Origin: Methylomicrobium sp.
GTDB taxonomy: Bacteria > Pseudomonadota > Gammaproteobacteria > Methylococcales > Methylomonadaceae
Reading direction: 5' to 3'
Length of the DNA stretch: 17,021 bases
Assembly: GCA_007135635.1 (NCBI GenBank)
Contig: SLIO01000103.1
Span: 1 to 17,021, forward strand
This document shows, one piece after another, positions 1,971 to 17,021 of this stretch. Both the position numbers and the translations under genes were made by a program. The notes beneath the pieces are model-generated. The model was not told the origin of the DNA and did no database searches. It saw only the letters and a program-made list of their open reading frames with translations. Each line of letters starts with the position of its first letter. Position 1 is the first letter of the stretch.

Positions 1971-3329
1971 ATGTTTCAATTGACCAAAACAGCCGTTCTG
2001 GCCTGCTTACTGATACTGCCGCAAGCGCGCGTTTACGCGCAAACTTCGGTACTCGAACACAAACAAACCTATACCCTTGAAGACGCTATCTCGCTTGCAT
2101 TGCATAACAACCCCGATTTACAAATCGCTCACGAGCGTATCGGCCAAGCTCAAGCGCAATTGGGCGAAGCATTCGCCGCGTTTTACCCGCAAGCCCAAAT
2201 ACGCATGTCTTACGAACATACCGACAACCCCTCGCGCGCTTTCGGCATGATCATATCGCAGCGTCGACTGAATCTTGACGGTTCAACTAATTTCAATCAA
2301 CCGGGCGGGACCGATAATTACCGGCCCGAAGTTGTCGCAACCTATTCGCTGTTTCGCGGCGGCCAAGACTATCAAACGGCCAAGGCCGCCGAACTCGGCG
2401 TCGAAGCCGCGGAATTGCAAGAATCGGCGGTCCGCAATCAATTAATCGAGGCCGTGACATCAGCCTATTACGGCTTGCTCGCTACCACCGAGGCGCATAA
2501 AGTCGCGTTGAATTCGATCAAGGCAGTCGACAGCGAACTTCGGCAAAGCCGAAATCAATACGAGGCCGGCGCACTATTAAAGTCCGACGTCTTATCGTTG
2601 GAAGTGCAATTGGCCGAAACCCAGGACGCTGAAATTCAATCGGCAAATGCGATTGAGTTAACCCGAACCGGACTCAAAACCTTGCTGGGCCTCAATACCA
2701 ACGAAACGCTTGAGTTCGAGCACGCCTCGGCGGTACTGCAAATACCGGAAAATCATGAGGCTTTCGAAGACCTACTGAATCGTGCCATACAGGAGCGTCC
2801 GGAAATCGTCGCCGCCTTCAAACAAGTCGAAATTGCCGAACGTAAACTGAGTGCAGCCAAAGGCGCGCATCTACCGCGTGCGAATGCGTATGTCAGTTAC
2901 GGCTCGGACAGTAAGAATATCGATTTTTCGACTAACCGCGACAATGTCACGGCCGGCGTTATAGTGGAAATGGATTTGTTTAGCGGTTTCGGCACCAGCG
3001 AAGCCATCAAAAAAGCCGAGCATCGATTGAACGAAGCGCAAAAAGCTCATACCCAAACCAAGCTCGCGATCGAAAACCAAGTCAAAACCGCTCATTTGAA
3101 ATTCAAAGAAGCACTAGCGCGCCTCAATGTAACACAAGCGGCAATCGCATCGGCCGAGGAAGCCTTACGCTTGGTCAACCAACAACGCCAAGCCGGCGCC
3201 GCTACGATCACGCGTTATATCGAAGCCGAAGTCGCGCGTGACAAGGCGCATTCACGCGATATCGCAGCGCGTTTCGATGCATTACGCGCCGAGGCCGAGC
3301 TCAAAAAAGCGCTGGGGAGTTGGCGGTGA
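1971..3329 (+). CDS. TolC-family outer-membrane efflux protein
   Basis: A 452-residue protein with a signal peptide at residues 1-23 (hydrophobic core then ARVYA before Gln24) followed by two outer-membrane-efflux repeats. YTLEDAISLALHNNPDLQIA near residue 34 opens the first repeat, as in TolC and OprM relatives. Long Ala/Glu/Gln-rich helices fill the rest, and RPEIVAAFKQVEIAERKLSAAKGAHLP-like residues (about 275-302) open the second repeat. Length is normal for the family. The protein would form the trimeric outer-membrane channel of a type I secretion or RND efflux system. No membrane-fusion or inner-membrane pump gene lies beside it, so its partner cannot be named. The SD-like GGAAAG sits in a short hairpin (AATGG, 1957-1961, with CCATT, 1966-1970) immediately before the ATG. 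The stop codon falls inside a heptamer tandem repeat. Confidence 0.92.
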   Translation: MFQLTKTAVLACLLILPQARVYAQTSVLEHKQTYTLEDAISLALHNNPDLQIAHERIGQAQAQLGEAFAAFYPQAQIRMSYEHTDNPSRAFGMIISQRRLNLDGSTNFNQPGGTDNYRPEVVATYSLFRGGQDYQTAKAAELGVEAAELQESAVRNQLIEAVTSAYYGLLATTEAHKVALNSIKAVDSELRQSRNQYEAGALLKSDVLSLEVQLAETQDAEIQSANAIELTRTGLKTLLGLNTNETLEFEHASAVLQIPENHEAFEDLLNRAIQERPEIVAAFKQVEIAERKLSAAKGAHLPRANAYVSYGSDSKNIDFSTNRDNVTAGVIVEMDLFSGFGTSEAIKKAEHRLNEAQKAHTQTKLAIENQVKTAHLKFKEALARLNVTQAAIASAEEALRLVNQQRQAGAATITRYIEAEVARDKAHSRDIAARFDALRAEAELKKALGSWR

Positions 3330-4339: not shown

Positions 4340-5983
4340 ATGAATACAGAACCGAACCGCCAATGGCAAAACTGGCTTGACCGCAATGTTTACGATCTAG
4401 CTCGACAAATGCGCCTCAGCTATGTACCGCCGTTGATGGTCTATTTGGCGGCGGGCGTATCCGGCTTGACCGGCATCGTTGGAACTTTTTTCGTCAAGGA
4501 ATACCTCGGGTTGTCGGCCGAATTTCTGGCCATGTTAGGTTTCTGGGTGATGCTGCCCTGGGCCTTGAAAATGCCGGTCGGTCATTTGGTCGATTTGCTA
4601 TGGCAGCATAAAGCCAAGTTGATTTATCTAGGCGCGGCACTGATCGCCGCTAGCTTGTTTATCATGATCAATCTATTGGCTGACCGGGAATTCATGACTC
4701 ACATCCTGCCTGCTGAAACCTGGTTTGTATTGTCAGCGTTACTAGCGCCGATCGGTTATGTCGTCCAGGATACCGTGGCCGATGCGATGACGGTCGAAGC
4801 GGTACCTCGTTTCGACGAGCATGGCAAGCCACTACCCGAGCTACAAATCAAATTGGCGCACACGACGATGCAGACCTTGGGCCGAGTTTCAATTATCAGC
4901 GGGACCATGCTGGTCGCGGCGGCCAATGTGATAATGTTCGACGACGTACACTTGATGGACGACGCAGAAAAAGCGGCGGTATATTTGACGGTTTACCGTT
5001 GGGCCTTGGTCATCCCGTTGATTTCGATAGCCGGGGTATTATTGTCCAACTACTTGCGCTCTCAGCAGGAATGGCGCCTGGCGGCTCAGGGTTATGAATT
5101 CGAGGACATTGACCGCTTGCTGACGCGGCCTGACGATGAATTGCCCGAAATCAACTGGTGGATTCTCGGCGGCGGACTCGGTTTCGTGTTGTTCGCGGTC
5201 TTGATGGGCTTGAGCGATATTCCGAATAGCGATGCGATTGTTTTTATCGGTTCGCTGGCTATTGTCATGTTTTTAATTTGGCGTCTGACGTTGGATTTAG
5301 ACAAAACGCAACGCAATCAGCTTTACGGCATCGCTTTCGTAATATTCGCTTTTCGGGCCGTACCGACGACCGGTGCCGGCGAAACTTGGTGGATGATCGA
5401 TGTGCTCGAATTCGATCAGCAGTTTCTCGCGCAACTATCGTTACTCACCGGCGGGTTGACGCTATTCGGCATGATTCTATTCCGGCGCTTCATGGCCGAA
5501 CGACCGATTACCCATGTCATTGCGGTATTGACGATAGCATTGAGCGCGCTGTATTTACCGAATATCGCGCTGTTTTACGGTTTTCAAGAATGGACGCAGG
5601 CCCATACCGGCGGCGTGGTCGATGCCCGCTTCATTGCCTTGATCGATACCGCGCTGGAATCGCCGCTTGGACAAATCGCGATGATTCCGATGCTGGCCTG
5701 GATCGCCAACTCCGCGCCGCCTAGACTCAAGGCAACCTATTTCGCGGTCATGGCCGCTTTTGTCAATCTGGCGCTTTCGCTGTCCCAACTACTGACCAAG
5801 GCACTCAATCAATTTTTCGTGATCAGCCGCGAAATCAAGGATCCTACAACCGGCTTGGTCATCACCGCAGCCGATTACAGCCAATTAGGCACCTTATTTT
5901 TCATCGTTATGTTTCTAGGATTGGCGATGCCGTTGTCGGCGATTTTTGTCGCCCGGCGCACGTTCTTGAAAGATCGGAACTGA
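4340..5983 (+). CDS. BT1/FBT-like MFS transporter, 12 TM segments
   Basis: A 547-residue polytopic inner-membrane protein with about 12 hydrophobic helices in two halves split by a hydrophilic loop (about residues 241-263). The first helices read VPPLMVYLAAGVSGLTGIVGTFF then LGLSAEFLAMLGFWVMLPWALKMPVGHLVD. The segment GYVVQDTVADAMTVEA (139-154) recalls the DxxxDxxVVE signature of BT1/folate-biopterin transporters, a major-facilitator branch. The substrate is unknown; folates or pterins are known for some family members, but this divergent bacterial form may carry something else. The ATG at 4340 lacks a clear SD; Met24 (before RLSYVPP) is a possible alternative start. The gene stands alone with repeats on both sides. 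Confidence 0.75.
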   Translation: MNTEPNRQWQNWLDRNVYDLARQMRLSYVPPLMVYLAAGVSGLTGIVGTFFVKEYLGLSAEFLAMLGFWVMLPWALKMPVGHLVDLLWQHKAKLIYLGAALIAASLFIMINLLADREFMTHILPAETWFVLSALLAPIGYVVQDTVADAMTVEAVPRFDEHGKPLPELQIKLAHTTMQTLGRVSIISGTMLVAAANVIMFDDVHLMDDAEKAAVYLTVYRWALVIPLISIAGVLLSNYLRSQQEWRLAAQGYEFEDIDRLLTRPDDELPEINWWILGGGLGFVLFAVLMGLSDIPNSDAIVFIGSLAIVMFLIWRLTLDLDKTQRNQLYGIAFVIFAFRAVPTTGAGETWWMIDVLEFDQQFLAQLSLLTGGLTLFGMILFRRFMAERPITHVIAVLTIALSALYLPNIALFYGFQEWTQAHTGGVVDARFIALIDTALESPLGQIAMIPMLAWIANSAPPRLKATYFAVMAAFVNLALSLSQLLTKALNQFFVISREIKDPTTGLVITAADYSQLGTLFFIVMFLGLAMPLSAIFVARRTFLKDRN

Positions 5984-6952: not shown

Positions 6953-7543
6953 TCAAGCTCCTTTATGATCTTCACTGAAAATCGGTAACGATTTCAGTAA
7001 TGCGACTACGCCAAAAATCACAGTCGCATAGATCAAGGTCGATTTGATATAGGCCGGGTAGAAATTCGCCATTTTGCTCAGTTTCTCAGACCAGACCAGC
7101 GCATCGTGACGGCCCGACAGCAAATAGAAGCTGAATTCGGAGATGAGGAACGCGAGCGTCGTTGCCGCGAGCAGAATTGCGAATTGTTTCAATAGTACAG
7201 ATGAGTTCAATTCTTTGAATTGGGAACACATTTTACCGCCGAACCAAACTGCGGCATAGGTCGGAATTAAAAAGACATAGGCCGGCGAAACGCAAAAACT
7301 GCTAACTCCGAAGAATTGAATCACGACAAAATCGATCAATGCCGCTTCGGCCAATAAAACGGCAAAAATGTGAGCACTACCTAGCCAAAGTCCGGCCAGG
7401 AAAAACACCGCAAGCGAAGCATCGGGAAGATTGAAAGAACTGCCGACATGATCGAATCGTGTTATAGCCATGAGTAACATTAAAGAAATAGCAATGGGGT
7501 GGTTAAAAGTGGCTTCGATAGGCTTTTGTTGCGCAATATTCAT
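6953..7543 (-). CDS. Small polytopic membrane protein, unknown function
   Basis: A 196-residue hydrophobic protein with about five or six membrane segments. Conserved-looking motifs are HPIAISLMLLMAITRFDH (15-32), NLPDASLAVFFLAGLWLG (38-55), EAALIDFVV (66-74) and SPAYVFLIPTYAAVWFGG (86-103). I do not recognise a named family. Size and topology resemble the substrate-binding S components of ECF vitamin transporters and small B12-regulated cobalt transporters, but no signature proves either. It follows the riboswitch-controlled receptor operon on the same strand after a 326-base gap, so a role in cobalamin or cobalt uptake is possible. The ATG has GGAG about 12 bases upstream. Acidic and aromatic residues in helices (D31, H32, D41, E66, D71) could bind substrate. 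Confidence 0.7.
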   Translation of the reverse strand: MNIAQQKPIEATFNHPIAISLMLLMAITRFDHVGSSFNLPDASLAVFFLAGLWLGSAHIFAVLLAEAALIDFVVIQFFGVSSFCVSPAYVFLIPTYAAVWFGGKMCSQFKELNSSVLLKQFAILLAATTLAFLISEFSFYLLSGRHDALVWSEKLSKMANFYPAYIKSTLIYATVIFGVVALLKSLPIFSEDHKGA

Positions 7544-7869
7544 AATTATATAGTCTCCAGTTTTAAAAAATTCTCGTAGGGCCGGCAGCGAAGCCCGTTA
7601 AAGTAATGAATCCTTCGCACGGCCGCATTTTCGGAGTTCAGTCAGGCACCTTAGTTCGATAACTCCATTTTTATCATGGACGCTATTCGCTCGAAAACCA
7701 CCTTTACCATTTTCTAGGGTAAATACTGGCAAAGATTATCGGCAGGTGCGGAAGCTCGCGAAAACAAGGTTATAGCTTAGCATAATGCTTGCTTTCGCGC
7801 TTTACACGCGAGGACAGGCCCGGTGCGTCAAAAGTCAAACTACCATCAAATGCAGTTTCAAGCGATAGT
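7544..7869. other. Non-coding gap in the cobalamin operon
   Basis: No gene seen. It holds the hairpin repeat at 7757-7799 and a 14-base sequence AGTCAGGCACCTTA (7640-7653) that is identical to the 5' edge of the cobalamin riboswitch (11870-11883). The other riboswitch elements are missing here. No clear terminator follows the DUF4465 gene, and no convincing promoter for the downstream gene was found. Confidence 0.55.
7757..7799. repeat. Hairpin repeat, copy 2
   Basis: Twelve-base arms CGCGAAAACAAG (7757-7768) and CTTGCTTTCGCG (7788-7799) pair with a single mismatch around a 19-base loop. The loop contains TATAGCTTAG, close to the loop of the hairpin at 6094-6134, and GGAAGCT precedes both hairpins. 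Confidence 0.65.
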
Positions 7870-8685
7870 TTATACTTCCAACGAGCTTCGGCGATTGAAG
7901 CCCAAAAGTGCTAACAAGCCGCTTCCCATTAACCAAATAGCGGCTGGAAGAGGAACGGCGGTAACCGTTAAATTATCCATCGCAAAATAAGCCGGCGTAT
8001 TCATTCCGAATGCCCCTTGATCGGTGGACGACATCGAAAAAGTCAACCCCGTGATCAAACCGAGAGAACTCAAATCGACCCATTCCCATTCACTGACGAT
8101 GTGACTGTTGCCATTGCGATAATCGGCTAAATAAAAATCGACTTGTCCGATTGTGTCGCCCCCGTTGACGCCCTGTATTGAAAGTTTAAGCCAATCCTGA
8201 TCGGTTCCCTCCTCACCGCCGAATTTTTTGGAGAATGCGTCGCCGTTAAGCATCGATAAAGCCGTGTAAGTGGTATTGGTGGCATAAAAACCTCCCGCCC
8301 ATACTGCTTCATCGAAAGCAATAGCCGCGTTGTTGCCGGAAACATAAGCGACGCCGAACTGACTGCCGCTAAAAGCCTGGCCCGAATAAACGCTGTATTG
8401 ATTGCCGAATCCCGGAGTCACATTATCGGTCATGTTCGAATAAGACCAGCCGCTCCAGGACGTGAAGCCGCCGCCCCAATCGGTAGTTTGATTGCTGAAT
8501 GTTGCGTTGCCGCTGGTAAAGGTGTTGTTGCTGGGTGTAACTGGCAGCGAGCCGGGTTCGATTTGTCCGGACCAATAACTATTGGGTGCTAAATCGAGAT
8601 CATCGAATGTAATAACTGATGCCGCTTGTGCGTAATTTGTTCCGATCAAGCCAAACACCAGCAATGAATAACGGCGAAATTTCAT
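7870..8685 (-). CDS. DUF4465 surface protein with VPLPA-type exosortase tail
   Basis: A 271-residue exported protein. Residues 1-21 form a signal peptide (ending YAQA). The body matches DUF4465: TFDDLDLAPNSYWSG (26-40), a WSGWSYSNMTD stretch, GFGNQYSVYSG, ATNTTYTALSMLNGDAFSKK, GTDQDWLKLSI, VDFYLADYR and the closing MNTPAYFAMDNLTVT. The C-terminus (244-271) is a sorting tail: VPLPAAIWLMGSG, a hydrophobic helix, then NRR. An exosortase would process it after export. DUF4465 proteins are often found as lipoproteins beside BtuB receptors in Bacteroidetes, which suggests corrinoid binding at the cell surface; that function is inferred here from position behind a cobalamin riboswitch. The SD AAGGAG lies just before the ATG, and 49 bases separate it from the preceding gene. 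Confidence 0.88.
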   Translation of the reverse strand: MKFRRYSLLVFGLIGTNYAQAASVITFDDLDLAPNSYWSGQIEPGSLPVTPSNNTFTSGNATFSNQTTDWGGGFTSWSGWSYSNMTDNVTPGFGNQYSVYSGQAFSGSQFGVAYVSGNNAAIAFDEAVWAGGFYATNTTYTALSMLNGDAFSKKFGGEEGTDQDWLKLSIQGVNGGDTIGQVDFYLADYRNGNSHIVSEWEWVDLSSLGLITGLTFSMSSTDQGAFGMNTPAYFAMDNLTVTAVPLPAAIWLMGSGLLALLGFNRRSSLEV

Positions 8686-8734
8686 GATTGCTCCTTATTA
8701 AAATGAGTTAAATACTCGAAAGTAATGCTAATTA

Positions 8735-9511
8735 TTAAATATCGGTCGGGCGGCGTTTTAGGCCTATCAGCGCAACCAGCGCCGATCCCATTAACCAAAG
8801 TGCCGCAGGAACAGGTACTGCGCTCAGGTTTTGATGGATGACCCCGATCGCATCCAGGTCGAAACCGGCGCTGCCGGTCGTCGGATAGGGATCGTAAATC
8901 CGGTTGTTCAGGCTATCGCGTGCGTTGCCGTCGCCGATTATGTCTATTAAACGAATATAAAGAATATTGTCTATGTCTAGGTTGCTGTGAGAGGCCAAAC
9001 CTGCCAAGTCGAACGGCGTGCCGAAGCCTTGGCGATATTTTCCCGCATAACCGTGAATGTTGGTGGGGTCGACGGAGCCGAAGGCACCGACCGCGCTGGG
9101 TGTGTAGGAATAATTATCGAACCGAAAAAAATCGCTGCCGTTTGAAGATACTTCCACCCAGGCCAGCTCCAAGAAGGTATCGCTAAACGAGTTTTCAAAG
9201 ACCGCGAAATCCCAGCCGGGCCCATTCATGATCGGATTTGCGAAAGTCAGCGTAATTTTACCGCCTTCCCCTAACGAAACGACATCGAAAGACGTACCGC
9301 TTGCTTTACCCAAAGCTTTTTCCGGTGTTTTAAAGCTGGCATCAAGGTTAGCACCGGGAATGTAATCGATCCAACCGGTCGCCCAGGCGGTAAACGCCGA
9401 ATCGTTCATGTGAATCGCGGTCGAGCCGGGTTGTCCGGCGGCGGGAGCAAAAGGGCCTGCGTGGCTGTTGACCGACAGTAACAGCGCCGACAAGGTTAAG
9501 AGTTTCTTCAT
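8735..9511 (-). CDS. Exported surface protein with VPLPA-type exosortase tail
   Basis: A 258-residue protein with a signal peptide at 1-18 (ending NSHA) and an exosortase sorting tail at 232-258: [20 protein letters not shown], then KRR. The central domain has the pattern [48 protein letters not shown] and TPFDLAGL, which I know from secreted cell-surface proteins of uncharacterised function in several phyla. A beta-rich fold is likely. Its ATG overlaps the receptor's TAA stop (TAATG), with SD AGGAG upstream, so translation is coupled to that of the receptor. Coupling and the riboswitch imply a role in corrinoid capture together with the receptor; the biochemical activity is unknown. Confidence 0.88.
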
Positions 9512-11550
9512 TAGTGATCTCCTGTGGATTGATAAGAATATGACAGACCGACATAGGCATGTCGTTCCGGCATCGGATAAAAGCCCCCGCCGTAAGCGGA
9601 GGTTTCGTAAAACGCGTTGAAAAGATTATTGATTCCTGCAAACAATTCGGCGCCGGCTATTTGATAAAACACTTTCAAATCGACTTTTTTGAATGCGCTC
9701 AGCGAAGGCTCATCGGCTTCCGGCGTAATATTCAAACCATTCGGACGGGTGCCGGTATATTCGGCCGATAAACTGACACTGAGCCGTTCCGTCGTATGCC
9801 ACAGGAATCCGGCATTGGCATTGATTTTCGGGACCAGGGGCATTGATAAATTGGTTTTATCGAAACGTGCGTCGGTGTAGCCGAAATTAGTCCACAACGA
9901 AAAGGCATCGGACAAATAAAAACGGGACTCGAATTCCAAGCCACGGCGGATGGTATCGTTTTCGTAATTTTTATTGATGCGGTCGTCGAAGTAGATTTCG
10001 TCGGTATGTGTCATTTGAAAAAAAGCAAGCGACATTTCCGACCAAGGCAAAAGGCTAAACCTCAATCCGGTTTCCCAGTTTTCCCCCTTTTGCGGCTTGA
10101 TCGAGTCGGCGCTTAGCAGCAATTCTTCGGGATTCGGGTTTCGGTAGCTTCGATTATGATTCATGTACCACGAAACCGACTCATTGATAGTCCATGTTAA
10201 GCCGAAATCGGCCGCGTAACTTCGCCAATTGTTTTTGCGGCTGGATACCTGAGTCCATCGATCGTTGCAATCTAAGGGTTGGAAAGGGAAAACCGACGCA
10301 AATGTACAAAACCGGCGAAATTCATCCGATGTTCCCTTTAAATCGAATCGGTCTTCTCGATAACCGGCGTTGAAGATTACCGGCACCGGTAATTCCCAGA
10401 CAGTATTGACAAACCCGCTTTGATTGTTGAATTCGGACCGTTTGACTTTGCTTTGATCTGGAATATCGTTGCCGTTTTCACGGCGTATCGCTTGGCCTTG
10501 CCGTCTGAAATAACCGAATGTCCAGGTTTGATTGATCGGGCCGGTTGAAAAATCGACTTGATGGCGCGCGTCAATTTCCCGGTTATCGAATTCATTTTTC
10601 CACGGATTGACGAATCGCTGATCGGGGTTCCAATAATTCGCCAGCTCGTAAGGGTTGTCTCGGTCGCGATAGCCTAGATTAATCCGAGTCAAGCCGAAAT
10701 TGCCCCAATCGAAAGAACCGCCCGTGTTCACCGCATAGTCGAATGTCTCTCCTCCGGCAAACGGAGTCGAAGCCTTTCTTCGCAAAGACGAATGGCTGAT
10801 TGCGGAACGGTCGACGGTACCGGCAAGGCCGAATTCGTCGTCATGCAGGCGGAAATTAGCGTATAAATTGAGCCGATCCAGCGGTTCGAAATCGACGTGA
10901 GCGGAAAATTGGCGTTTTTCGAGAAAAGTATTATCGCGGTAGCCGTCCGTATTGAAATAAGCTCCATTGACGGAAATACGAAAGGGCCCTTGCTTGTAGC
11001 CCGCATTCAAACGTACGTCGGACGTGTCGAAATGGCCGTAGCTACCATAAATTTCCGCGCGGGTCCGGTCGGTTTTGCGAGTCACGATATTCACCACGCC
11101 ACCGACTGCGCCGTCGCCGTAAAGTACTCCGCTGCCGCCGCGGATAATTTCGATTCGCTCGATTTGGCCAAGCGTCATCGTCGACAAATCGGCGCCGGAT
11201 AAATCGGGTGCATTCAACCGAATACCGTCGACTAAAATCAACACGTTGCTGTGGAGTGAATCGCCCATGCCTCGGATGTCGACACCGCCGAATTTATCGT
11301 GGCCGGTAAAACTACGTACCGTAATGTTGGCCTCACGGGACAATAAATCGATTAACGAATTGCTTGGCGCATTCAAGATGTCGTTTCGATCAATGACGGT
11401 TATGCTTTTAGGTTGTTCCCATACCGTACCCGCCGTCCCGAAAACGGTCATAGTCGAAAGCGGCTGCGCTCGTTCGCGTATCGAGTCAGCATAGGCATGA
11501 TCGGCAATGAAAACCAAGACCAGCAAGAGGCGTTTTTGTGTGTCCGGCAT
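9511..11550 (-). CDS. TonB-dependent receptor, BtuB-like (cobalamin uptake)
   Basis: A 679-residue outer-membrane receptor. A signal peptide (about 1-21, ending HAYA) is followed by a TonB-box-like LSTMTVFG (32-39). The plug domain comes next, with [64 protein letters not shown] 22-strand barrel ends in [10 protein letters not shown] length of 679 exceeds E. coli BtuB (614) but is normal for the superfamily. Cobalamin as substrate is inferred from the cobalamin riboswitch directly upstream. The start at 11550 is forced because an in-frame TAA lies two codons before it, yet no SD is visible there. It is the first gene of the operon and overlaps the next by one base. No btuCDF or tonB-exbBD genes lie nearby. 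Confidence 0.92.
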
Positions 11551-11693
11551 CGATTAATAGTTTATTAAGCGGCGTCGGATTAAGGAGTCCCGTCTTAGAG
11601 ACTTGAGGTGCGCAAAGAAACGCTATCGATCGGAGGATCGGAAGGGTTTTTTGTCACTCAATCGCCCGCCGCGATGAGGTTACGAATGCTTTT
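11551..11693 (-). promoter_or_regulatory. Riboswitch expression platform / receptor leader
   Basis: About 140 untranslated bases separate the aptamer from the receptor ATG. Possible stems include CTCATCGC with GCGATTGAG (one bulge, around 11657-11678), CGATC-CTCC-GATCG near 11625-11640 and GTCT-CTA-AGAC (11592-11602). None is followed by a U-run, so I see no intrinsic terminator; control may be at translation or by an unrecognised fold. Confidence 0.45.
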
Positions 11694-11883
11694 AGGCCGG
11701 TCTCCGGGCTTTCGAGTCGCATAAGCTCAATTGCCGCCTTCCCACCTAATGGCAGTGGCATGTTGGCAATTGTAATCTCGATTACCGTTGCGGGGGCAGC
11801 GTCGGCATTGCAATCATGCGCACCGAACTTCCCGTTTAACCTGATTACTCAACGGACAAAGCCATTGGTAGTCAGGCACCTTA
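11694..11883 (-). ncRNA. Cobalamin riboswitch (AdoCbl-type aptamer)
   Basis: On the minus strand the conserved elements appear in the correct order: GGTGCCTG at the 5' edge, TTAAACGGGAA and CGGTGC, then GCTGCCCCCGCAACGGTAA (complement of 11782-11800), the B12 box GCCACTG (complement of 11753-11759), GGGAAGGCGGC, and the closing GCCCGGAGACCGGCC (complement of 11695-11709). This arrangement is diagnostic for the cobalamin aptamer. It controls the downstream receptor and exported-protein genes, and such switches normally lower expression when cobalamin is plentiful. Confidence 0.96.
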
Positions 11884-11896
11884 AAGCAAGGTGGAC

Positions 11897-11924
11897 ATTA
11901 TATGGATTTACAGACTGAATGCAA
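11897..11924 (-). promoter_or_regulatory. Sigma70-type promoter of the cobalamin operon
   Basis: On the minus strand TTGCAT (-35, 11919-11924) and a perfect TATAAT (-10, 11897-11902) are 16 bases apart. Transcription would begin near 11890, a few bases before the riboswitch. A/T runs upstream (11952-11967) could act as an UP element. Confidence 0.75.
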
Positions 11925-12260
11925 GTGGAAGAAAAATAGAGAGGATTCAATCGAAAAAAAAACATTTTTTGGGTGGGCGGGGGCTGCATCCACGTCCCGC
12001 GCAGTCGGAGCAACATCTACGTCGCGACTATCGAAGCCATTGACGCTCAAACATCAATAGTCATCTAGGACGATGCCGTTCATTAATTTTTAACTTATGC
12101 GACAACTACATTGACATATACCGGCCGCAATGTTTTCCTACCGTTTGCAGCTCCCATCATGGGTTTGCGCTTCGCTCCTACCCATCCTACTTCGCTCGCG
12201 AACCAACTATTGCGAAGTATATGTCATTCGAACAGTCGTTTAGAGTCTTTTGCCGACGCA
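11925..12260. other. Non-coding interval with one dispersed repeat
   Basis: No gene is supported. The right part contains CCCATCATGGG (12153-12163) leading into a GCTTCGCTCCT repeat that ends with CATCCTAC near 12190 and has a reversed relative at 6793-6834. The left part has A and T runs upstream of the cobalamin operon promoter. No terminator was recognised after the RMD1-like gene. Confidence 0.55.
12153..12190. repeat. Dispersed intergenic repeat (CATCCTAC family)
   Basis: The sequence runs from CCCATCATGGGTTTGCGC through TTCGCTCCTACCCATCCTAC. The reverse complement of 6793-6834 is nearly the same, with a few substitutions and a 3-base difference, so two copies lie in opposite orientation about 5.3 kb apart. 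Confidence 0.65.
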
Positions 12261-13055
12261 TCAAAAAACCCTGTCGACTAAAGACATCACAATTTCGACC
12301 GCGATCAAATAAATAATGATCCACTCGAGAAACGACGAATGCTGATGTTTTTGCTCGTCGGCTAGCATTTCCAATAATTCATGTATCGTCTCGAGCTTTT
12401 TCGATAGCACTTCGGTGCGCGGTTGAATTTCGAGATAATTGGCCGCCATCGAATAGATGCCTTGATACTCCGGATGCTCCCAGAAAAACTCGGGGGTATC
12501 GAGCAGATCGTAATTCAAAATGATATCGCTCTTGGTTAGAAACAATTGCCCCCGGATCATTGCGGTCGCTTTTCTACCGAGCCGTATTTTTCCTTCCTTG
12601 GCCAGGGATTCGGGTAAATGGCTGGTTTCTCGAATCGTATTGATCGCATGACCTTCGAAAGCCGCCAATTTAATCGATTGCGCCATGGCATGCGATAAGG
12701 CCAAGAGTATCATTTGATCGGCGCTGATTAGCTCAATATGATCGCTTTGTATTCGGTGCTGCTCGCAGTTTATTTCGTAACTGAAATTGTCTTCCTGCGG
12801 CTCGGCATCGGGCTTGATTGCAAAGCCTAGTAATAAATCATGTAAATTCCGCCGTTCGTCAAGACTCACATGCCAATGCACGACGACGCCGTAAGCGAAT
12901 ACAATCGAGCAGCCGCTTTTATAGTCGACGACCAAGGCGTTTCTAAACGACTTGACGCGTCCCGACATCAACATTTTCTCGCGCAATGCCGGAAAATCGA
13001 AGGATTGCGCAAGGCAAACGGTTAAACAATGTCTGATAGGACGATCGCTGGTCAT
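12261..13055 (-). CDS. RMD1/DUF155-family membrane-anchored protein
   Basis: A 264-residue protein with the DUF155 (Rmd1/Sif2) layout: an N-terminal beta-rich region with ALVVDYKSGCSIVFAYGVVVHW (40-61), a central ISADQMILLALSHAMAQSIKLAAFE stretch (110-134), then helices with YLEIQPRTEVLSKKLETIHELLEML (207-231). One C-terminal membrane helix follows (about 243-260, SFLEWIIIYLIAVEIVMSL). Eukaryotic relatives are mitochondrial membrane proteins tied to meiotic division or translation; the bacterial role is unknown. It is the last gene of the minus-strand set, 13 bases after the GNAT/C39 gene, with SD AGAGGA before the ATG. Its place suggests a membrane partner for that system. Confidence 0.88.
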   Translation of the reverse strand: MTSDRPIRHCLTVCLAQSFDFPALREKMLMSGRVKSFRNALVVDYKSGCSIVFAYGVVVHWHVSLDERRNLHDLLLGFAIKPDAEPQEDNFSYEINCEQHRIQSDHIELISADQMILLALSHAMAQSIKLAAFEGHAINTIRETSHLPESLAKEGKIRLGRKATAMIRGQLFLTKSDIILNYDLLDTPEFFWEHPEYQGIYSMAANYLEIQPRTEVLSKKLETIHELLEMLADEQKHQHSSFLEWIIIYLIAVEIVMSLVDRVF

Positions 13056-13068
13056 AACTTTCCTCTAG

Positions 13069-14202
13069 TCATTCGCGCCGCGCGATGATCACGACAGCTC
13101 TCAGCTGGCTACGCCCGAAGCGGGACATCGCCAAAAATTCGGCTTTCGGCACCGGCACATAAAAGTTATCCGCTTCGCTGGCATGCTGTTCGGTATCGAC
13201 ATCGGGATCGTGCAGATAAATAAAGTGCGGATCGTGCGCGGTCACGACTACCCAATGCGGCGCTTTGTTGCGATTGATCCGGTAAGTGCTAACCAAAATC
13301 AACGGAATATGACCGGCATCCAGATGCCCGGTCAATGCTTCCAACGTGATTTTATCGAAATGCATGCGCACGTCGGTTTGCTCGAGCTGGCGCAGAAAAT
13401 CCTCTTGCACCAGACTGATGACTTCGCGTTTTTCCGGATTGCGCACGCTGTCGATAAACAATACATCTTGATGACTCAGATACACATCGACCGCAAAACC
13501 TCGCCGCCAAGCCGCCAGCGCCAAACCGTGAGGTCCGCATCCGCCGTGCCCGGAGGTCATAAAAATCGTCGTCGATTCGCGCCAAATTTGCAGTTCATGC
13601 GCCTGCGACAATTCGATGTCCGGATTCAGTCCCGCCATCGCCATCAACAAGCCCGAAGGGCCGCAGCTGAAATCGGTCGTTTGCCGATAAAACGGCACGG
13701 TCAGACGGGTTTCCGGATGCGGATAGATGATTCGTTTCTCGAAGCATAGCGCCTCGCTGTGATCTTCATAATAATCTTCTTTGGTATCGAATTGCCGATA
13801 ACCTTGTTTTCGGTACAACGCGATCGCTTGTTGATTATCGGGACGAACTTCGAGCCTCAAATACACGCAGTCGCGCTCTCGTGCGCGTGCTTCAGAGTGA
13901 TTGAGCAGTCCCACGCCAATACCGAGCCCGCGGTATTCGGGTAACACCGCGAACGAATAAAGTCTTGCCAACGATGCGCCTCTGCGGTACAGCAACAGCG
14001 CATATCCCGCCGCTTTATCTTCGATTTCGGCAAGGATGATATCGGCATTGGCTCTTTCCAGCATCCAGTGAAAATTGCGCGAGGTTAATTTATCCTGTGT
14101 AAAACAAGCATTTTCAATCGCCAGCAATTGCCGGACGTCATTTTTGACCGCGCTACGAAACACGATGTTCGGTGTTCCTTCGGCACCCGCAAAATCAGTC
14201 AT
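13069..14202 (-). CDS. GNAT acetyltransferase fused to C39-like cysteine peptidase
   Basis: A 377-residue two-domain protein. Residues 12-156 are a RimI-like GNAT domain: the acetyl-CoA loop RGLGIG (91-96) follows FAVLPEY, and ALYRKQGY (128-135) closes the fold. Residues about 165-377 are a papain-like peptidase of C39 type: QTTDFSCGPSG with nucleophile Cys180, GGCGPHGLALAAWRRGF (220-236), PHWVVVTAHD with His316, and HDPDVD (331-336) able to supply the Asp. All three expected catalytic residues are present. No transporter domain is attached, unlike bacteriocin-exporting C39 proteins. It begins 6 bases after the DUF2817 gene and is followed 13 bases later by the RMD1-like gene. It may acetylate and cleave a peptide made by the RimK-like ligase; the substrate is unknown. 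Confidence 0.92.
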   Translation of the reverse strand: MTDFAGAEGTPNIVFRSAVKNDVRQLLAIENACFTQDKLTSRNFHWMLERANADIILAEIEDKAAGYALLLYRRGASLARLYSFAVLPEYRGLGIGVGLLNHSEARARERDCVYLRLEVRPDNQQAIALYRKQGYRQFDTKEDYYEDHSEALCFEKRIIYPHPETRLTVPFYRQTTDFSCGPSGLLMAMAGLNPDIELSQAHELQIWRESTTIFMTSGHGGCGPHGLALAAWRRGFAVDVYLSHQDVLFIDSVRNPEKREVISLVQEDFLRQLEQTDVRMHFDKITLEALTGHLDAGHIPLILVSTYRINRNKAPHWVVVTAHDPHFIYLHDPDVDTEQHASEADNFYVPVPKAEFLAMSRFGRSQLRAVVIIARRE

Positions 14203-14208
14203 TATCCG

Positions 14209-15297
14209 TCAATCCATATCCGCCAATCCATCAAGCGCCTGTTTTAACACTTGTTCACTACGAAACAGCACCATTTCCTGCCAATCTCGCTTATCCGGAT
14301 AAAAATAATCCCGGATTTGCTGCCGTACCGGATGATTGAGTTGCCTTGTTTCGGGATTTCTATGCCAAAGGTAATTTTCTTTGCGCAACACGGCAAACAG
14401 CGCTTCAAGCGAGTAAGTACCGAATTCCAAGGTAATATAACAGCCACGATCACCCAGAACCTTATGCCAGGCATAATCGAGCAACCCCAACTTAGGCACC
14501 GAAGTCGATGTTCCTAGTGCCGGCTCGGTGACGCTGTCGCCAAACCACCGCTTCGCCAATTCTGCAGCCTTGGAACCTGGCGTATGATCCGAAATGACTT
14601 CACCATAACCATAGGGACCGAGTCCCGAATGGATGTCGACAACCGCGACTCGTCGCCGATTCGCCAAGTCGAATTCGCGCATCACGGTTTCAATCACTTG
14701 TCTCGACCAGGTGGAAGATGCGCCTCCATAAAACAAGCCTTGCGGATATTCGAATTGACCGCCGCTGATCGCTTCCTCGGTCTTGCGTTGACCGTAACGC
14801 TGCCGGTACTCGTTGATTGTTTGCAATACGTTCTTTTCGGTTGCGTCGGTCCAATGCTCCGGCAGTAAAACATCGGACAATTCCCGATACCCCTGATTGA
14901 CCGGGCAATCGGAAAAATCGATGAAGTTGCGATTCAAATCGACATTATCTTCGTTAACGCGGCGCAAATGAGCAAAGCCGAACGGATTCAAGGCATGAAT
15001 GAACAACACTGCGGTATCGCCTGCGGGCATCGGTGCATGCCTAAGCCAATTGATTTGCGCTGCAGAACCGCAAAAGCCCTCGACACCATGGGTCGCGCTG
15101 ATGATAACCAACACCTTGTCGACTTGTTCGCCGCCGAACCAAAACACCTCGGTCGACAAGGGTTGATTGTCGTCAGCTAACAATGAATGTTGAAAACGCC
15201 TTAAATGGCCGGGCTGGGTGGAACAGGCGGACAGAAAATTTTCGCGTGCGTCGAAATAGTCTGTAGAAAAGCTTTTTAGGTCGTAATTGCTCGGCAT
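14209..15297 (-). CDS. M14-family (DUF2817) zinc metallopeptidase
   Basis: A 362-residue cytoplasmic protein with no signal peptide. Zinc and catalytic residues of the M14 carboxypeptidase fold are visible: HGVEG (His70, Glu73), RRVNEDNVDLNRNF with substrate-binding Arg/Asn (112-125), DIHSGLGPYG with the third zinc ligand His223, and TLEFGTY with the candidate general base Glu291. Length fits DUF2817. The expected reaction is removal of a C-terminal residue or hydrolysis of an amide bond; the substrate is not known. SD GGATGAG stands before the ATG. The gene is 6 bases upstream of the GNAT/C39 gene and 143 bases downstream of the RimK-like ligase gene, which suggests editing or turnover of the ligase product. 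Confidence 0.9.
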   Translation of the reverse strand: MPSNYDLKSFSTDYFDARENFLSACSTQPGHLRRFQHSLLADDNQPLSTEVFWFGGEQVDKVLVIISATHGVEGFCGSAAQINWLRHAPMPAGDTAVLFIHALNPFGFAHLRRVNEDNVDLNRNFIDFSDCPVNQGYRELSDVLLPEHWTDATEKNVLQTINEYRQRYGQRKTEEAISGGQFEYPQGLFYGGASSTWSRQVIETVMREFDLANRRRVAVVDIHSGLGPYGYGEVISDHTPGSKAAELAKRWFGDSVTEPALGTSTSVPKLGLLDYAWHKVLGDRGCYITLEFGTYSLEALFAVLRKENYLWHRNPETRQLNHPVRQQIRDYFYPDKRDWQEMVLFRSEQVLKQALDGLADMD

Positions 15298-15318
15298 AAT
15301 GTACTCATCCGGTTTGCT

Positions 15319-15346
15319 AAAAAAATAGGGAACGCGTAGGGTACGC
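15319..15346 (-). terminator. Weak possible terminator after the RimK-like gene
   Basis: On the minus strand GCGTA-CCC-TACGC (15334-15346) is followed, after eight bases, by seven Ts (15319-15325). The stem is only 5 bp and set back from the T-run, so it may merely attenuate transcription or mean nothing. Confidence 0.25.
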
Positions 15347-15440
15347 TGCGGTTAGGGTATCAGGTCTCCCAATCGGAACGAAGGAATCATTAGGGAAGTT
15401 ATTTTATGCTTATTCCTAAACCGCCTTGAATTTTACGCTC

Positions 15441-16928
15441 TCAAGCATAAGCACTATGCTTACGCTCCAATCGGCGCACAAACTCCTCCATGATGATGCG
15501 GTACAAATCCTCACCTAAATAATCATCCTCGACACTGCTGTCGATACTCGGATTATCGTTGATTTCGATGATTACATTGCGGCCTTCGACTTGTTTCATA
15601 TCGACACCGTAAAATCCGTTACCGATCAGTTTAACCGCTTTGGTCGCTGTTTTGATAACAGCCTTAGGCACGTCATGAACAGCCAGCGTTTCGAAACCAC
15701 CACTTTTACCTTTCGCTTTCTCGCTACTATGATTGTAAATTTGCCAATGCCCCCTCGCCATGTAATATTTGCAGGCGTAAATCGGCCTGTTATTCAAAAA
15801 TCCGATTCGCCAATCATAGTCGGTCAACACGTATTCCTGCACTAATAATATGGCCGACTCCCTAAATAACTCGCGACAGTGGTTTTCCAACTCGTCGCGG
15901 CCATGCGCCTTAACCACGCCGCGAGAAAACGAACCGTGAGGAATCTTGAGCACCAGCGGATAACCGAAGCGCTGTTCCAATTCGTCAAAATCCAGCGGCT
16001 TGTCGCGCATGATCAGCTGCGTTTTCGGGGTCGGAATACTATGCGCGCTTAATAAATCGGCCAAAAATACCTTATTGGCACATTTCAGAATCGAATCGGG
16101 ATCGTCCAGCACGACCAAGCCTTCGCTTTCAGCCCGTTTGGCAAAACGGTAAGTATGATGATCGATCGCGGTGGTTTCGCGGATGAACAAGGCATCGTAC
16201 TCCAAAAGCCGTGCGAAATCGTTTCTATCGATTAAATCGACATCCAAGCCCAGCTCATTACCGGCTTTGATGAAGTTCCTCAGGGCTTTCGCATCGCTCG
16301 GTGGAAATTCCTCATGCGGATTGTAGAGAATCGCCATGTCGAAACGAAAACGTTTGCGCAAGCGGGGCTTGCGCCAAATCTTTCGGCTGAAGGCATCGAT
16401 CGCCGCGGCGAATTGATTTTGTTCGCTTTCGTCCAATTCGGCTAGATTTCCGGGCGTGATACCGACAATTTCCCAGCGCTCGCCTCGCTTAAACTCAACA
16501 TTCAGAATCGGGCTTGGGTAAAGCTCAAACAAGCGCCTGGCCAATTTTTCAAGCGGGGAATAAGACACTTTGCCGAAAAATATTTTTATTCCGAAATATT
16601 CCGTGTCGGGTTGCCCGTAGCTCGCCAGATGCTTTCCCAGATATTTATCGAGATTGTTATCGTAAAGATGATAATAATGATGATTGGCTAAATCGTTGAT
16701 GCTGCGAATCGACGGAATCACACGTTGCCCACGCGCTTCGGCCAACAAAGAACAATAATAGCCAGTACCGAGATAATCATATTCTCGGCATAAATTGATG
16801 ACTTGTGTTTTACCGGCTTTTTTACTTTCCGGCAACGTCAGATAAACCTCGACTGCGACGAGATCACTACTAGGATAATAAGGCGCCCAGTCTTCCAGGC
16901 GATCGACAACGATATATAAAGAATGCAT
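15441..16928 (-). CDS. RimK-like ATP-grasp ligase with RLAN N-terminal domain
   Basis: A 495-residue protein read from the ATG at 16928, preceded by GGAG. The frame stays open to the window edge, but the 31 extra codons lack conserved character, so the gene is probably complete. Residues 1 to about 150 match the RimK-like ATP-grasp N-terminal (RLAN) domain, beginning MHSLYIVVDRLEDWAPYYPS. The ATP-grasp region follows: ILKCANKVFLADLL (280-293), nucleotide lysine in PLVLKIPHGSFSRGVVK (324-340), VQEYV (363-367), DWRIGFLNN (372-380), YGVDMK (440-445) and the metal site IIEINDNPSID (453-463). Such enzymes join an amino acid or peptide through an acyl phosphate, as RimK adds glutamates to ribosomal protein S6. 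Substrates are unknown. It leads the metallopeptidase, GNAT/C39 and RMD1-like genes. Confidence 0.93.
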   Translation of the reverse strand: MHSLYIVVDRLEDWAPYYPSSDLVAVEVYLTLPESKKAGKTQVINLCREYDYLGTGYYCSLLAEARGQRVIPSIRSINDLANHHYYHLYDNNLDKYLGKHLASYGQPDTEYFGIKIFFGKVSYSPLEKLARRLFELYPSPILNVEFKRGERWEIVGITPGNLAELDESEQNQFAAAIDAFSRKIWRKPRLRKRFRFDMAILYNPHEEFPPSDAKALRNFIKAGNELGLDVDLIDRNDFARLLEYDALFIRETTAIDHHTYRFAKRAESEGLVVLDDPDSILKCANKVFLADLLSAHSIPTPKTQLIMRDKPLDFDELEQRFGYPLVLKIPHGSFSRGVVKAHGRDELENHCRELFRESAILLVQEYVLTDYDWRIGFLNNRPIYACKYYMARGHWQIYNHSSEKAKGKSGGFETLAVHDVPKAVIKTATKAVKLIGNGFYGVDMKQVEGRNVIIEINDNPSIDSSVEDDYLGEDLYRIIMEEFVRRLERKHSAYA

Positions 16929-17021
16929 GGGCTCCGCCTGGGAAATAAAATAGAGGTCTAGAAATACTAATTCTGTCTTAATTACGAAAAGAGCTTTTCT
17001 CTGAACCGCGGATTCATTCAA

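Follow-up and report, generated by a model that had tools for sequence, protein, structure and literature searches.

A putative B12-repressed cobamide scavenging operon in Methylomicrobium sp. with capture proteins bearing exosortase-type tails

Extracellular capture of vitamin B12 has been studied mainly with lipoproteins of gut Bacteroides. Cobamide operon 2 of Bacteroides thetaiotaomicron is B12-regulated and has the order BtuJ2-BtuH2-BtuL-BtuG2-BtuB2-BtuF-BtuC-BtuD-BtuX. B12 binding was shown in 2026 for eight members of the DUF4465 family, to which BtuJ belongs (PMC13398666), and the chains 9hmu, 9fct and 9i2l are described as B12-bound structures (PMC13398666, PMC12751083). Here we analyse a window of DNA from Methylomicrobium sp. 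(contig SLIO01000103.1), by which we mean the whole stretch of 17,021 nucleotides. Its minus strand shares with B. thetaiotaomicron operon 2 a TonB-dependent receptor, a DUF4465 protein and a candidate BtuH-type domain, together with B12-type regulation. A first-pass annotation had read positions 7870 to 11924 as a riboswitch-controlled B12 uptake operon with two exosortase-tailed surface proteins. The uptake operon itself is borne out by the riboswitch, the receptor, the DUF4465 protein and a BtuM homologue, and we favour, with a probability of about 0.78, a B12-repressed cobamide scavenging operon with surface capture proteins carrying exosortase-type tails. That annotation was supported in part; it had overlooked the BtuM gene and the resemblance of the middle protein to BtuH.

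Organisation of the locus

The elements follow one another on the minus strand as possible promoter, riboswitch, receptor, family X, DUF4465 protein and BtuM homologue, family X being our label for the unnamed family of the 258-residue exported protein:

11897..11924, minus strand: possible promoter (TATAAT at 11902-11897, spacer of 16, TTGCAT at 11924-11919); weak
11678..11898, minus strand: cobalamin riboswitch aptamer, RF00174, 102.8 bits, E 3.5e-25, full length (model positions 1-189)
9511..11550, minus strand: TonB-dependent receptor, BtuB-like (plug and barrel), by profile and solved-structure matches
8735..9511, minus strand: family X, exported 258-residue protein with a BtuH-like fold, by predicted fold and profile comparisons
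9185..9196, minus strand: family X residues E106-N107-S108-F109, of which N107 and F109 align with BtuH2 Asn399 and Phe401
8750..8821, minus strand: PEP-CTERM-like tail of family X, residues 231-254, sub-threshold (model helix 236-252)
7870..8685, minus strand: DUF4465 (BtuJ-type) protein, 271 residues, PF14717 E 1e-50
7984..8004, minus strand: HI-loop motif MNTPAYF, DUF4465 residues 228-234 (motif and role as described in PMC13398666 and PMC12751083)
7888..7959, minus strand: VPLPA-CTERM-like tail of the DUF4465 protein, residues 243-266, sub-threshold (TIGR03370 24.3 against 25.35)
6953..7543, minus strand: BtuM homologue, 196 residues, S-component-type B12 importer, E 2e-24 to 8c7p/8ovv

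The riboswitch, already recognised in the first pass, lies far above the RF00174 gathering score of 31.5 bits and is the single match to this model in the window's draft genome (G000). The receptor, the exported protein coupled to it through TAATG (an overlap of the receptor stop with the family X start) and the DUF4465 protein were likewise found where they had been described. Only the promoter held in part. Its TATAAT is perfect, but the upstream TTGCAT matches the -35 consensus at 3/6 positions, TATAAT occurs five times in the window (both strands together), and a consensus promoter scan of 7500-12260 listed no minus-strand promoter. It is the weakest element of the locus.

The DUF4465 protein scored 173 bits against PF14717 (curated cut-off 25), and six solved sequences match it at E <=1.6e-7, among them the three B12-bound chains. 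Y233 and Y140 fall on Y245 and Y146 of the 9fct chain (alignment, hand-counted); these are the conserved B12-binding tyrosines of BtuJ1, in the HI loop and the DE loop helix, respectively (PMC13398666, PMC12751083). N229, T230, P231, F234 and Y140 are invariant in 40 aligned DUF4465 rows, and Y233 is present in 39/40. The proposal that this protein captures corrinoids is supported, since its family comprises proven B12 binders (PMC13398666) and the window sequence keeps MNTPAYF. On these alignments, the window protein would bind B12.

Among solved structures, the receptor comes closest to entries for the vitamin B12 receptor BtuB (E 2.3e-23), and the next family follows at 2.9e-14. It scored 137 bits against the BtuB equivalog model TIGR01779, which counts against the assignment, as the cut-off of 599.7 was not reached; we therefore call it BtuB-like and do not file it as a formal BtuB member. 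By bits its top NCBIfam model is TIGR01783, the siderophore receptor subfamily (169 bits, below the cut-off of 223.5). This ranking would fit an operon that imports another corrinoid-like or metal ligand, with the riboswitch merely reporting on B12. We hold such a reading to be very improbable, for the DUF4465 protein, BtuM and the riboswitch all indicate cobalamin and BtuB is the best receptor match among solved structures.

The last gene lies below the lower limit of the operon drawn in the first pass, which was correct for the part it described. The 196-residue product did not reach the DUF6580 Pfam cut-off (19.7 against 27), and it matches, at E 2e-24, the solved chain 8c7p, titled 'Cobalamin ABC transporter', which we take to be Thiobacillus denitrificans BtuM. 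The cysteine in its FCVSPAY aligns, by alignment count, with the cysteine at chain residue 80 of 8c7p, and Cys80 of BtuM is described as ligating cobalt (PMC6072759). The order riboswitch, receptor, family X, DUF4465 and BtuM is repeated in a same-family genome (locus L138 of G226), where the cysteine lies in DFCLSPAY. A BtuM-like gene also adjoins the riboswitch in Methylobacillus arboreus (L013), in divergent orientation and with a cysteine in a more diverged FCLTDGYW. With a BtuM homologue, the operon would cover both membranes. The intergenic gaps are 49 nt between family X and DUF4465 and 326 nt between DUF4465 and btuM. A consensus scan for terminators listed none on the minus strand between 7500 and 8735, so cotranscription of btuM with the genes upstream is possible, if unproven.

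Family X and its relation to BtuH

The predicted fold of family X found its best match, with modest margins, in the B12-binding domain of Bacteroides BtuH (C-terminal domain of BtuH2, 7biz). BtuH2 and BtuGH were top-ranked in both fold comparisons (VIA-align and Foldseek), and BtuH was the top profile match (E 0.014). Comparison by hhalign gave probabilities of 56% and 85%, over just 33 and 35 columns and above 60 shuffles. Over 158 aligned residues family X is 16% identical with 7biz. The residues aligned with N107 and F109, Asn399 and Phe401, are described as contacting the nucleotide loop and lower ligand in BtuH2 (PMC8941943). N107 is kept in 79/79 and 68/68 rows, and F109 in 75/79 and 52/68. 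Q27 (kept in 56/79 and 33/68) aligns with the ribose contact Gln333 solely in a low-confidence extension.

Several results weigh against this relationship. In VIA-align the BtuGH row (11.9) tied with PAPP-A2 (11.2), though BtuH2 (13.1) stood clear of it, and in Foldseek muskelin (4.2e-4) stood level with BtuH2 (3.4e-4, 3.8e-4). The TM-scores were low (0.41-0.44 by query), only the 33-35 columns align confidently, and the BtuH2 corrin contacts His476, Tyr510, Trp511 and Trp577 have no reliable family X counterpart outside the aligned core. Family X is probably a relative of BtuH by these sequence and model comparisons, with a remote link and modest margins, and as such it may bind cobamide.

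Because the fold scores were tied, we raised the weight of a rival explanation, in which only the DUF4465 protein binds B12 and family X serves as an accessory domain at the surface (carbohydrate- or matrix-binding and discoidin-like, or receptor-docking), holding the capture protein close to the receptor. It is still the unlikely one of the two: BtuH2/BtuGH led both fold comparisons as well as the profile search, the best-aligned stretch includes the two BtuH2 contact residues, and family X has no resemblance to the BtuL sequence. Moreover, BtuH2 itself is described as modestly similar to an alginate-lyase domain of this same fold (PMC8941943).

Two other assignments of family X were rejected. 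Identity with BtuL received an hhalign probability of 0.1. Homology to DUF4465 was given 89%, which spans query columns 221-259, the shared tail only, and was rejected on that ground. A weak NCBIfam match to LIC_13355 lipoproteins scored 21.3 against a cut-off of 120. The family is large, with 7412 proteins at E <= 0.001 among 8000 scored candidates, some possibly through the tail alone, and the 120 matches listed show no Pfam domain besides PEP-CTERM. Among PLSDB plasmid records, the window family X found no match (tblastn, E limit 0.01), and three records match DUF4465.

Sorting tails and exosortase

Both exported proteins had been assigned exosortase-type tails of the form VPxPAAxWLMGS-helix-RR. 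The form is present in both, including VPLPAAIWLMGS..., then the helix and then RR, but the curated cut-offs were narrowly missed: 18.0 and 17.3 for PF07589 (20.7), 24.3 and 15.5 for TIGR03370 (25.35), and, for a window tail, 13.8 for TIGR02595 (16). Since they fall below these cut-offs, we take the tails to work like a sorting signal and do not file them as PEP-CTERM or VPLPA-CTERM members. The first-pass reading had also been made to depend on an exosortase gene in the genome. None (PF09721) was found in G000, a draft that is 79% complete, but 5/5 same-genus genomes have one to three each. The search that included these five had exosortase in 16/21 genomes overall, with G000 among the misses, and exosortase is present in the other four genomes of the order that carry DUF4465 (G226, G241, G114 and G141).

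The missing exosortase and the sub-threshold scores speak against sorting and would suit tails that go unprocessed here, as plain C-terminal membrane anchors holding periplasmic proteins to the inner membrane. We regard this as improbable in view of the incomplete draft, the exosortases of the relatives and the tails of two relatives (L022 and L016) that pass curated cut-offs. Exosortase sorting of both proteins is likely, and exosortase-type tails where the BtuJ and BtuH of Bacteroides are lipoproteins, as originally suggested, are supported.

Other lineages carry other tails. Judged by eye, PEP-CTERM or VPLPA-CTERM tails occur in gammaproteobacterial and betaproteobacterial loci and in many from planctomycetes and verrucomicrobia; several deltaproteobacterial loci show a CFI-type motif, and those of Bacteroidetes type IX secretion system (T9SS) domains. 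Nine proteins were checked with NCBIfam, and matches above cut-off were TIGR02595 (L016), TIGR03370 (L022), TIGR04183 (L063, L078) and the CFI model NF041763 (L046); of four proteins taken as CFI-tailed, just L046 passed the CFI model. With tail groups assigned by eye and tail type confounded with phylum, full-length exosortase (E below 1e-20) was found in 23/26 genomes of the PEP-tailed group, 1/6 CFI-tailed genomes (one more had a weak match) and 0/9 T9SS-tailed genomes (5 had weak partial matches). In G114 and G141, relatives from the window's order, the family X and DUF4465 proteins within a genome share a near-identical C-terminal half (97.5% identity over 524 residues and 94.3% over 546). 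This half of more than 500 residues replaces the PEP-CTERM tail in L140:3634-10908 and L141:3507-10779, and that of the L140 family X resembles a stretch of M36 metallopeptidase models (275 bits, below cut-off). The same two domains thus appear from sequence to carry different tails by lineage, namely PEP-CTERM, T9SS, CFI-box or an M36-like C-terminus.

One tailed member may already have been studied. The crystallised D5EK51 (PDB chain 9hmu_A) of Coraliomargarita akajimensis terminates in VPE, where the VPEP tail starts in a Coraliomargarita relative (L055), which suggests that D5EK51 natively bears a PEP-CTERM tail. The words PEP-CTERM and exosortase were not found by word search in the text of PMC13398666. 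If the tail is native, B12 binding has already been demonstrated for a DUF4465 protein with a PEP-CTERM tail, although the tail itself went unremarked. The first-pass remark that no experimental work on such a system was known is only partly right, given the 2026 binding data for the DUF4465 part and the VPE end of D5EK51.

We propose that, at low intracellular cobalamin, the riboswitch would permit expression of the receptor, the two capture proteins and BtuM. The DUF4465 protein and family X, exported by Sec, would bind cobamides outside the cell. Exosortase would cut the VPLPA/PEP-CTERM-like tails, and the domains would remain on the cell surface or within the extracellular matrix, so that tail-based placement would serve the role of the lipid anchors in Bacteroides. 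The capture proteins would hand the vitamin to the BtuB-like receptor, and BtuM would carry it over the inner membrane to supply enzymes of the kind of MetH, whose activation domain was found in 12/12 genomes checked, including G000. Exosortase substrates may be retained in exopolysaccharide, and this speaks against a variant in which both proteins are released after tail cleavage as soluble or vesicle-borne B12 traps, like protein siderophores. The variant does not exclude surface capture and is a possibility to which we give less than even weight. In its favour, B. thetaiotaomicron BtuJ proteins are described as carrying cobalamin on extracellular vesicles (PMC12751083), and the PEP-CTERM protein ZepA takes part in zinc uptake as an exoprotein (PMC10957091).

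Distribution of the gene set and comparison with known systems

Scanning genomes with an alignment of family X confirmed at least 566 loci. The best 80, picked by family X alone, were kept, and genes were counted in them with profiles and a single receptor query on stop-to-stop frames. By record title they come from gamma-, beta- and deltaproteobacteria, planctomycetes, verrucomicrobia, Bacteroidetes, a spirochaete, a myxobacterium and others. DUF4465 lies near family X in 49/80 loci and is fused to it in 11 (7 planctomycete, 2 Bacteroidetes, 1 betaproteobacterium and 1 unclassified record). The receptor was detected in 43/80, a BtuC-like gene in 11/80, and a BtuG-like gene in 9/11 Bacteroidetes loci, with one further BtuG match elsewhere. 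An Rfam scan of 70 loci (0.90 Mb) found a cobalamin-class riboswitch in 55 (54 RF00174, 1 RF01482), and in 51 loci it lies <=1.3 kb upstream of a same-strand family X, DUF4465 or receptor frame. Expectation for 0.90 Mb is 0.3, from a base rate of 18 in 12 genomes (about 55 Mb) that belong to the window's order and not to the phyla of the loci. The first-pass annotation had made its reading depend on conservation of the gene order in relatives. The gene set is conserved but its order varies by lineage: receptor-X-DUF4465 in eight gammaproteobacterial loci, X-DUF4465-receptor in betaproteobacterial loci, and DUF4465-receptor-X in deltaproteobacterial and some verrucomicrobial loci.

Other counts are less favourable. 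Neither DUF4465 nor a detected receptor is present in 17/80 loci, several of them cut by contig ends, and 15/70 scanned loci have no cobalamin riboswitch. Within the window's order DUF4465 is sporadic, in 5/311 genomes (G000, G226, G241, G114 and G141) and 0/5 of the same genus; the G241 contig (L139) ends inside the family X gene, with the upstream part unseen. CobB/CobQ (PF07685, E below 1e-15) was counted by hand in 207/311 genomes of the order and in only one of the five carriers, G241. PF07685 matched in 5/5 same-genus genomes and had no match in G000, a pattern consistent with loss or with gaps in the draft. We draw no conclusion on lost B12 synthesis in carriers, as two of them (G000 and G226) are incomplete drafts and two others (G114 and G141) come from a single genus.

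Two Deltaproteobacteria-titled loci (L007:3228-3615 and L006:6438-7063) have a cobalamin riboswitch followed by a c-di-GMP-I-GGC riboswitch (cyclic di-GMP) just upstream of DUF4465-family X. These tandems resemble the adenosylcobalamin/c-di-GMP logic gates of Desulfobacca acetoxidans, the purpose of which was left open (PMC9481103), and by analogy they might gate B12-capture exoproteins.

We consider it rather probable that family X and DUF4465 form an ancient two-part cobamide-capture module across phyla, joined to the sorting system of the host: exosortase, T9SS, CFI-box, an M36-like C-terminus or, as BtuJ/BtuH in gut Bacteroides, lipid. The gut Bacteroides BtuH domain, described as without a known structural homologue, would then be one branch of a far larger family. 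If so, BtuJ- and BtuH-like capture is spread over many environmental bacteria, the job falls to two families of exosortase-type exported proteins, and the large family X acquires a proposed function.

Elsewhere in the window, 12261-17021 (minus strand) encodes DUF155, a GNAT (RimI-like) domain fused to a C39-like peptidase domain (DUF3335), DUF2817 and a long frame, cut by the end of the window, which by eye resembles a RimK-type ATP-grasp ligase. A large membrane protein similar to BT1/folate-biopterin transporters (PF03092, 51.5 bits) lies at 4340-5983, and a TolC-family outer membrane efflux protein (PF02321, E 1.6e-65) at 1971-3329.

Each part of the locus is of a known kind. In the open-licence PMC texts searched we found no description of their combination, of the link to BtuH or of tails that interchange. 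None of those on exosortase and cobalamin is on this subject by title and abstract start, a search for PEP-CTERM together with BtuB returned nothing, and in the one on cobalamin riboswitches and PEP-CTERM the riboswitches flank synthesis genes.

The window BtuM is homologous to 8c7p, keeps the cysteine and lies near a receptor gene, as described for BtuM (PMC6072759); it differs in standing beside exported capture proteins. D5EK51, for which PMC13398666 gives binding and structure, has the same domain as the window DUF4465 protein (E 7.4e-25) and is probably tailed in the same way. The BtuH2 domain is the top fold match of family X, with the N107/F109 correspondence, but family X has no PKD domains and no lipid anchor. 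ZepA, likened here by description and not by sequence, sets a precedent for an exoprotein with a PEP-CTERM tail that serves nutrient uptake, and TonB-dependent transporter genes lie in its genomic neighbourhood; it differs in acting on zinc under Zur regulation (PMC10957091).

A locus on a Bacteroides finegoldii plasmid record (L123:10081-25137) has the B. thetaiotaomicron operon 2 order, BtuJ-BtuH-BtuL-BtuG-BtuB-BtuF-BtuC-BtuD-BtuX, with genes named by position and similarity to that operon, and its BtuH is identical to 7biz over residues 103-593. Its plasmid setting and adjoining integrase genes are consistent with mobility of such loci. The window gave no match to BtuG, BtuF, BtuC or BtuD. 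Where Bacteroides has lipoproteins, the BtuG propeller and BtuFCD, the Methylomicrobium window has exosortase-type tails and BtuM.

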